This document shows positions 36,743 through 38,422 of a DNA stretch of 39,527 bases, piece after piece. Source of the DNA: a virus; the IMG/VR virus record IMGVR_UViG_3300049048_000049, positions 1 through 39,527 of that record. One strand, written 5' to 3'. Made by a program: the position numbers and the translations under genes. Under the pieces are notes generated by a model. It searched no databases and had not been told where the DNA came from. It worked only from the letters and a program-made list of their open reading frames with translations. Within the stretch, counting starts at the first letter, position 1; each line of letters begins with the position of its first letter.

Positions 36743-37214
36743 AGACTTGATCGACCCCGAGGACGGCGAGAACCGCGCCGTGCGGGCCTTTCTCCTGCAC
36801 TACGGAGCACCCGGACTGACCGTGGGCCGCATGCGCGAAAACCTGCGCCTGTCCGGCTGGGGTGGCTGCTGGCCGGAATGGGTCAACACACAGGACCGAG
36901 AGCACCTGACGAAAGGCGGCGCTCAGGACTGGCTCCGCCACCTGTTCGCGCTGGAGAACACCGCTGGCGTGCTGGCGTCGGACAAGTTCGGTGACGCCAA
37001 CCTGAGCAAGGGCAACGCGGGCGGCTGGACTGCTGACATGCCGACGTCCGACAAGCCCGACCTTGCCGCCCATGCGATTGAGGAATTGCACCAGCTAGGC
37101 TACACCGTGCGCGACGGCAGGCTGATCCCGCCTGACAACCTGCACGAACTGGCCCGCGTGGCTGGCTTCTCCACCGCTGGCGTGGCACCGTCTGACGGAG
37201 CACAGCAGCCATGA
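36735..37214 (+). CDS. Accessory protein with acidic N-terminus, unknown function
   Basis: A 159-residue protein. GENRAVRAFLLHYGAPGLTVGRMRENLRLSGWGGCWPEWVNTQDREHLTKGGAQDWLRHLFALE (11-74) looks like a folded domain; the C-terminal part holds AAHAIEELHQLGYTVRDGRLIPP. It directly precedes the methyltransferase with ATGA overlap. Family not recognised. Confidence 0.6.
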   Translation: MRKDLIDPEDGENRAVRAFLLHYGAPGLTVGRMRENLRLSGWGGCWPEWVNTQDREHLTKGGAQDWLRHLFALENTAGVLASDKFGDANLSKGNAGGWTADMPTSDKPDLAAHAIEELHQLGYTVRDGRLIPPDNLHELARVAGFSTAGVAPSDGAQQP

Positions 37215-38422
37215 TGTTCGGCAGCGTTTGCAGCGGCATCGAGGCGGCTAGCGTGGCATGGCACCCGCTCGGGTGGAAAGCCGCCTGGCTCGCCGAGATC
37301 GAGCCCTTCCCGTGCGCCGTGCTGGCGCACCACTACCCCACCGTTCCCAACCTGGGCGACATGACCACCATCGCCCGCCGGGTGCTGACCGGCGAGGTCG
37401 AGGCCCCGGATGTCCTGACCGGCGGCACGCCCTGCCAGGCGTTCTCGGTCGCCGGCCTGCGCGAATCCCTGGCCGACGAGCGCGGCAACCTGACCCTGAA
37501 ATTCGTGGAGCTTGCAGATGCAATTGACCATGTTCGAGGCCGAGCTGGAAAGCCCGCTTCCGTCGTCGTCTGGGAAAACGTCCCCGGCGTTCTCAGCACG
37601 AAGGACAACGCCTTCGGGTGCTTTCTGGCTGGGCTTGCCGGAGAGGATGACGCGCTGGAACCGCCAGGGGGCCGGTGGTCGGACAGTGGTTGTGTGTATG
37701 GCCCCCAGCGAGCAGTCGCGTGGAGGACCTTGGACGCCCAATACTTCGGGCTGGCCCAACGACGCCGCCGTGTGTTCGTTGTCGCAAGTGCTCGAGCAGG
37801 GTTCGATCCCGCCCAGGTACTTTTTGAGTGGCAAGGCGTGCGCCGGGATTCTGCGCCGAGCCGACAAGCGGGGGAAGGAACTGCCGCCGCAACTGCACCA
37901 AGCCTTACGGCAAGTGGCCGAGGTGTCGAGCGAAGCGGAGAGTCCCGAGGACAGGATCCAGTCGTAGCGGTCCATGCGCCGGAGATCGCGCGTTGCGTCG
38001 CAACGCGCGAGGGTTCATCGCAGGACTGGGAAACGACCACGATGGTGGCCCACAGCCTGCGCGGCGAGGGCTTCGACGCCAGCGAAGACGGCACGGGGCG
38101 TGGCACGCCGCTGGTGCCGGTTGCGGTGTCACTGCGCGGCCGGGAAGGCGGCGGCACCGCTGAGCTAGGCGACGAGGTGCAGAACGCGCTGCGCGCAAGC
38201 GGCGGCGGCGGGGACAAGGCTCACATTTTGGCGGCAATGCAGGTTCGCCGGCTCACACCCACTGAGTGCGCGCGCCTGCAGGGTTTCCCCGACGACTACC
38301 TCGACATCGACTACCGCGGCAAGCCCGCAGCCGATGGCCCGAAATACAAGGCGCTCGGCAACAGCTGGGCCGTGCCGGTCGCCCGCTGGGTGGGCCGCCG
38401 AATTCAGCAGGAGATTGCATGA
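37211..38422 (+). CDS. DNA cytosine-5 methyltransferase
   Basis: A 403-residue C5-methyltransferase: motif I FGSVCSGIEAASVA (3-16), motif IV GGTPCQAFS with catalytic Cys75, motif VI WENVPG (121-126), motif VIII QRRRRVF (183-189), a target-recognition region (about 200-340), then RRLTPTECARLQGFPDDY and the motif X KALGNSWAVPVARWVG. No partner endonuclease is adjacent, so it is probably an orphan enzyme protecting phage DNA from host restriction. Its target cannot be read. A second gene is nested in another frame at 37518-37967. Confidence 0.95.
   Translation: MMFGSVCSGIEAASVAWHPLGWKAAWLAEIEPFPCAVLAHHYPTVPNLGDMTTIARRVLTGEVEAPDVLTGGTPCQAFSVAGLRESLADERGNLTLKFVELADAIDHVRGRAGKPASVVVWENVPGVLSTKDNAFGCFLAGLAGEDDALEPPGGRWSDSGCVYGPQRAVAWRTLDAQYFGLAQRRRRVFVVASARAGFDPAQVLFEWQGVRRDSAPSRQAGEGTAAATAPSLTASGRGVERSGESRGQDPVVAVHAPEIARCVATREGSSQDWETTTMVAHSLRGEGFDASEDGTGRGTPLVPVAVSLRGREGGGTAELGDEVQNALRASGGGGDKAHILAAMQVRRLTPTECARLQGFPDDYLDIDYRGKPAADGPKYKALGNSWAVPVARWVGRRIQQEIA
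37518..37967 (+). CDS. Gene nested inside the methyltransferase (+1 frame)
   Basis: A 149-residue protein read entirely within the methyltransferase gene. It starts at an ATG with GGAG (37507-37510) seven bases upstream and stops at 37967. The sequence does not look like a random shadow: QLTMFEAELESPLPSSSGKTS, WTPNTSGWPNDAAVCSLSQVLE and especially IPPRYFLSGKACAGILRRADKRGKELPPQLHQAL match, as I remember them, uncharacterised proteins encoded beside or within phage cytosine methyltransferases. Function unknown. It covers methyltransferase residues from about 103 to 252, between motifs IV and the target-recognition region. Confidence 0.6.
   Translation: MQLTMFEAELESPLPSSSGKTSPAFSARRTTPSGAFWLGLPERMTRWNRQGAGGRTVVVCMAPSEQSRGGPWTPNTSGWPNDAAVCSLSQVLEQGSIPPRYFLSGKACAGILRRADKRGKELPPQLHQALRQVAEVSSEAESPEDRIQS

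Follow-up and report, generated by a model that had tools for sequence, protein, structure and literature searches.

A conserved gene nested in the +1 frame of a viral C5-cytosine methyltransferase gene, and its possible role as an element of the enzyme supplied in trans

The window analyzed here is the whole 39,527-nucleotide stretch of IMG/VR record IMGVR_UViG_3300049048_000049, a virus record with no host label. Toward its end lies a gene for a 403-residue C5-cytosine DNA methyltransferase (MTase), whose product matches PF00145 in Pfam across residues 1 to 399 (E=5.8e-36) and the DNA methyltransferase family phrog_116 in PHROG (E=9.4e-89). Motifs I (GSVCSGIEAA), IV (PCQ), VI (ENV), VIII (QRRRRVF), IX (RRLTPTEC), and X (GNS) can all be read in the frame 0 translation, and the PCQ is retained in nearly all complete relatives. 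The enzyme is also matched by phrog_864 ("DNA primase"), perhaps via a fusion, and that name may mislead. Intein-like insertions are present in two related MTases, at motif VI after ENV (L381) and at the catalytic motif, PC/Q (L019). A DUF4224 gene lies 3' of the MTase gene, as does another ORF that, judged by its sequence and without a Pfam match, looks like a phage integrase; because of these two neighbors, this end of the window resembles a temperate-phage early region.

A sequence-only reading of this DNA had pointed to a 149-residue ORF inside the MTase gene, with GGAG seven bases 5' of its start. Coordinates, frame, and site are all exact (Table 1); the nested ATG falls at MTase codon 103, and the peptide YFLSGKACAGILRRADKRGKELPP, which that reading quoted, is found in the nested translation. 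A nested ORF in one sequence proves nothing, because a GC-rich gene makes a long +1 ORF cheap: the +1 frame of the window survives in 10.5% of synonymous shuffles in which the MTase protein is fixed and codons are drawn from the same gene. The claim of a second gene rests instead on its relatives.

Table 1. Positions of the methyltransferase gene and of the nested gene and its parts in the window
Feature	Position	Strand	Evidence
C5-cytosine DNA methyltransferase (MTase), frame 0	37211-38422	+	ORF, PF00145, phrog_116
Shine-Dalgarno-like GGAG, 7 nt 5' of the nested ATG	37507-37510	+	sequence
Nested gene, 149 aa, +1 frame relative to the MTase	37518-37967	+	ATG start 37518, TAG stop 37965-37967
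Nested residues 1-85, N-terminal part predicted to be disordered, under weaker constraint	37518-37772	+	AlphaFold pLDDT ~54-65; synonymous-codon identity ratio about 1.4-2.2
Nested residues 88-140, conserved three-helix core (LSQVLE..PRYFLSGKACAGILRRADKRGKELPPQLHQAL)	37779-37937	+	pLDDT 91-97 at residues 101-140 and ~80 immediately before them

Stops in the nested frame of relatives, which the sequence-only reading had proposed as evidence against a second gene, did not occur: across 168 nonredundant loci none was observed, whereas 3.33 per sequence would be expected for a fixed MTase protein, indicating a frame that is open beyond what the first protein allows. Further, where MTase residues are conserved, observed codon identity is about 1.0 to 1.5 times the expectation outside the overlap and mostly 1.6 to 3 times within it, reaching 2.3 to 3.0 (codons ~104 to 240), and in both sets of aligned relatives (U1 and U2) the borders of this synonymous constraint coincide with the nested ATG and the nested stop. 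This shows purifying selection on the second frame independently of the first. At codons 211 to 225, identity is 0.85 to 0.89 in the nested frame versus 0.52 to 0.62 in the MTase, and at codons 206 to 232 the substitution phase flips, such that the least constrained site is position 3 of the nested frame. Over the latter codons, 60 to 62% of codon changes leave the nested-frame residue unaltered versus 6 to 8% outside the overlap, and only 10 to 11% are synonymous in the MTase frame. A profile hidden Markov model (HMM) trained on proteobacterial-type nested cores and scored on Firmicute-type cores gave a median of 76.5 bits versus a synonymous-shuffle mean of 4.4, with 66/66 loci above all 200 shuffles.

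The start signals are conserved as well, in keeping with the good ribosome site claimed earlier. The nested ATG is kept in 65/65 aligned members of set U1 and 55/55 of set U2 (120/120 together), where a synonymous null would keep it in 35% and 50%, respectively. A Shine-Dalgarno-like match of at least 4 bases precedes this ATG in 65% of set U1 versus 21% of synonymous shuffles and in 100% of set U2 versus 36%. In 55/55 members of the Firmicute set, AGG encodes one particular MTase arginine, though it accounts for ~15% of arginine codons there, and this codon forms the GAGG of the ribosome site. The loci are partly non-independent and the pair and count statistics ignore phylogeny; this is unlikely to change the coding conclusion, given that the effects are large and repeated in two sets. 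On this comparative sequence evidence, we consider it confirmed that the segment is a dual-coding gene, with about 450 bases encoding two proteins and both frames under purifying selection, as had been proposed.

We then considered how widely the arrangement occurs. A tblastn search with the nested protein gave matches in 148 phage and 531 plasmid records, almost always beneath an annotated MTase gene, P1 dmt and P7 among them. From five scans, covering viral and genome contigs, and from annotated-phage records came 501 loci with the core, and in 496 of these it lies exactly in the +1 frame of the MTase-homologous frame. The phages and prophages bearing it are linked to Pseudomonadota, Mycobacterium, Acidobacteria, Bacteroidota, and others, as well as to Bacillota (Streptococcus, Ruminococcus, Clostridium, and Oscillibacter). 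Among distant pairs, the nested core is more conserved than the enzyme; for instance, Streptococcus phage Javan261 has 47% identity across 66 nested residues and 25% in the MTase. When MTases were gathered by their first ~100 residues only, i.e., 5' of the overlap, about 156/158 had the core in the +1 frame, a figure that describes this MTase clade and not C5-MTases at large because the sets are the best 80 matches to each of two queries. Two further MTases gathered in this way have the core in another frame, consistent with a local frameshift. In a phylogenetic tree, 67 nested MTases group together in a single clade, separate from 20 others. A minority of the MTases of Clostridium magnum and Oscillibacter have the nested core, and it is absent from all 24 newly fetched loci, which are ordinary C5-MTases from one phylum. 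Several more distant MTases (L793, L796, L797, L799, and L801) have a +1-frame segment resembling LxDILEESVDERYFLS (E of about 1e-6 to 1e-8), and the nested arrangement may extend past the studied clade to such enzymes. Free-standing copies were sought in five viral scans, one genome scan, and ~800 genomes: none among the 501 loci was convincing, and the ~800-genome sample held decayed or truncated fragments only. Strict coinheritance of the nested ORF and the MTase is, however, partly forced by the overlap itself.

The nested gene is also present, but unannotated, in dmt of phage P1. Its region occurs in 493 of 5,426 complete Escherichia coli genomes, nearly all on P1-like plasmids, and about half of the P1-like copies listed align to P1 only to nested base 406. 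Because many copies match P1 only to about this base, the variable region of the MTase seems to have been exchanged in P1-like copies, with the joint inside the nested core. In P1 and P7 the nested frame is intact on either side of the break, with different C-terminal helices. As for the enzyme, GenBank states that P1 Dmt "perhaps" methylates cytosine, and its cytosine activity is best regarded as putative; a genome-wide CRISPRi screen of P1 found dmt to be non-essential for plaques (PMC10695390).

Structure prediction with AlphaFold, using 89 diverse homologues, revealed an apparently disordered, low-confidence N terminus and a confident helical core with helices at residues 88 to 93, 105 to 118, and 124 to 140. 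The core is basic and compact (net charge of about +3), and in the stretch LSxKACxGILRRAxKRGKxLP the A, C, G, I, R, and LP are among its residues that are invariant or nearly so. Sequence searches of the family against Pfam, NCBIfam, and PDB returned nothing convincing, and a Foldseek search of the core model against PDB found no match (the best hit, E of 2.6, was a sigma-factor fragment); one family member has a weak match to TIGR00675 (dcm; E=0.0029). A ribbon-helix-helix fold, suggested by a weak FitA-like Pfam match, was rejected (HHalign probability of 0.3% against PF01402), as was a helix-turn-helix domain (0.06% against PF01381).

The sequence block had been described in the sequence-only reading as one that recurs in uncharacterized phage proteins, and such proteins can be named. 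Against BFVD, the best match of the core model is gp104 of mycobacteriophage Thibault (UniProt G1FGG9), which corresponds to the nested core with a different start. Similarly, 81/103 nested proteins match phrog_16143 (best E=2.6e-16), although the window protein itself has no PHROG match; this family of 139 positions, called "DNA methyltransferase," appears to hold nested proteins, and the enzyme's name may mislead. Neither is described as a nested gene in the entries examined. At the Thibault locus (L089/L261) and at L265 and L263, an insertion parts motif VIII from the remainder of the MTase; in Thibault it is annotated as an HNH endonuclease, and the nested core there gains the new start of gp104. 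A group I intron was rejected as the identity of the insertion at these loci, as Rfam gave no match; a comparable HNH insertion has been described (PMC11855218).

What the core might do is suggested by canonical C5-MTases. The nested-core HMM matches an ordinary MTase from the genome sample (L800) in frame, after motif VIII (E=3.4e-9), where the segment directly past the motif reads ...VPLKKVLEKHVPEKYYFSAKAVQGMLKN.... E. coli Dcm has a comparable stretch at the same place, which lies in solved structures (3ME5 and 3LX6) and can be likened to the nested-core consensus LSxILExxVPxKYYLSxKACxGILRRAxKRGK; in Dcm it is in frame with the enzyme, whereas in the window clade it is in the +1 frame as a separate ORF. 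In HHalign, nested cores scored 32.0 against canonical post-motif-VIII segments versus a maximum of 12.8 in 60 column shuffles, and 26.1 without L800; the corresponding probabilities are 82% with and 49% without this sequence, the canonical comparison set being small (10 to 12 MTases), with L800 supplying much of the signal. In the opposite direction, an HMM of the canonical segment matched 151/174 nested cores and 0/174 frame 0 chains downstream of motif VIII (both at E<0.01), and without L800 it matched 84/174 and 0/174, respectively. Because of this difference, the frame 0 enzyme of the clade can be said to lack an element found in several other C5-MTases, whose counterpart the nested frame encodes. 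By sequence, the small chain thus carries an element that the large chain lacks, as in a two-polypeptide C5-MTase. Convergence may account for some of the resemblance: because the nested core overlaps the codons of motif VIII, a frameshift of the canonical segment cannot by itself explain the first residues of the core (LSQVLE). Further, many sampled C5-MTases have no obvious in-frame element of this kind, and for that reason the fold may not depend on it in some families.

A second line of evidence comes from six split loci (L342, L349, L358, L362, L434, and L499), where the MTase frame stops near the core and the nested frame continues via the variable region to motifs IX and X. If the enzyme works at these loci and no frameshifting takes place, translation of its C-terminal half must depend on the nested start. 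Motif IX is in the small chain only at these six loci; in the window, the nested ORF ends before it. Two other loci (L449 and L403) have the N-terminal half of the MTase in frame with the nested core via an indel before or near motif VIII, and these joins could be errors, decay, or another fusion.

Two-chain C5-MTases are known. In M.AquI, the larger chain has motifs I to VIII and the smaller one motifs IX and X, and in M.EcoHK31I the small chain carries one motif only, IX (PMC3404938). The split loci resemble M.AquI, with the enzyme halves in two chains and motifs IX and X in the second, and M.EcoHK31I offers a precedent for a single element handed to a small second chain. The window shares with both systems the distribution of conserved C5-MTase parts between a large and a small chain, here proposed from sequence, but differs in that its large chain keeps motifs I to X and its small chain carries the post-motif-VIII element, with an ORF that falls entirely within the large gene, in the +1 frame. 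M.EcoHK31I has overlapping reading frames. Another alternative-frame protein within phage DNA methylase genes is the ShiLan domain, a hidden out-of-frame HNH endonuclease of mycobacteriophage methylases that is a homing insertion with a disjunct distribution (PMC11855218). Unlike it, the nested ORF does not represent an insertion, lacks both an HNH motif and a Pfam match, and occurs in nearly all MTases of its clade. Two-chain C5-MTases and the ShiLan insertion, the latter a different thing, are the nearest published cases; our literature search, which covered open-licence papers only, found no published description of the nested gene.

The account we favor, with some reserve, is that of a two-part C5-MTase whose nested protein supplies the missing piece in trans. 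Frame 0 would give the catalytic chain, with motifs I to VIII, the variable region, and motifs IX and X, and the internal Shine-Dalgarno sequence and ATG would start a second, shorter chain consisting of a disordered N terminus followed by a small three-helix domain. The latter would be the counterpart of the element that lies between motif VIII and the target-recognition domain in ordinary C5-MTases such as Dcm. Made from the same mRNA, the nested chain would most likely dock at the hinge between the catalytic and target-recognition domains and complete or tune the enzyme in trans. We infer translation in vivo, binding of the two chains, and a need for the nested chain in methylation activity. 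The broader proposition, that this is an ancient and widespread frame-split enzyme, its element lying in an alternative frame of the same gene and obligatory in trans, in phages and prophages of several phyla including P1, seems to us evenly balanced. Of the functions suggested in the sequence-only reading, assisting or extending the MTase agrees with the resemblance of the core to the post-motif-VIII element. That reading also held that a lack of homologues outside MTase alternative frames would count against a real gene; practically every copy is indeed nested, but near-total nesting fits a part of the same enzyme, canonical MTases have in-frame relatives of the core, and stops are uncommon in the nested frame.

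Regulation, another of those suggestions, would make the nested protein a distinct factor that regulates or inhibits the MTase or its mRNA, its likeness to the element reflecting mimicry or descent. A single mRNA from the same gene, a compact basic core, and a resemblance that would suit a mimic competing for that site are all compatible with such a role, but frame 0 chains without the element leave a mimic nothing to displace, and fusions to motifs IX and X put the nested part within the enzyme; we consider regulation improbable. It is still less probable that an independent counterdefense or antirestriction factor was overprinted by chance on the MTase gene. Here, the phage and prophage setting is apt, and phage MTases are themselves typically protective. 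However, PADLOC, which covers defense more than counterdefense, has no match for nested proteins without a fused MTase half, no free-standing copy was seen among the 501 loci or in the ~800-genome sample beyond decayed or truncated fragments, and the core resembles an MTase segment, so that the suggestion that the product counters restriction found no support.

The remaining readings dispense with a separately initiated protein. Programmed frameshifting from the MTase into the +1 frame, adding the element in cis, is suggested by both frames being open for ~130 codons, and one shift at the split loci would yield a canonical full-length chain. Against this, unsplit genes would require two shifts, constraint covers the entire nested ORF from its ATG, and the invariable ATG with its enriched Shine-Dalgarno sequence fits internal initiation, making frameshifting very unlikely. 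A noncoding cause, whether RNA structure or a DNA recombination joint, can point to the breakpoint in the core at which about half of the P1-like copies listed stop aligning, and its probability is close to nil: substitutions track the nested codon phase, stops are lacking throughout the nonredundant loci, and the nested frame of P1 and P7 stays intact across the break. The substitution phase refutes it as the full or main cause of conservation.

In our judgment, long same-strand nested genes with comparative evidence this strong are rare, and this one sits unannotated in a model phage, P1. If the nested protein does supply an element in trans, codon-altered versions of MTases of this clade that are cloned or synthesized would be left without a subunit, unnoticed; this is a possible reason why "orphan" phage MTases are inactive. 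More generally, as the unsplit, split, and in-frame states are all natural, the family presents a case for a split enzyme and an overprinted gene arising from each other.
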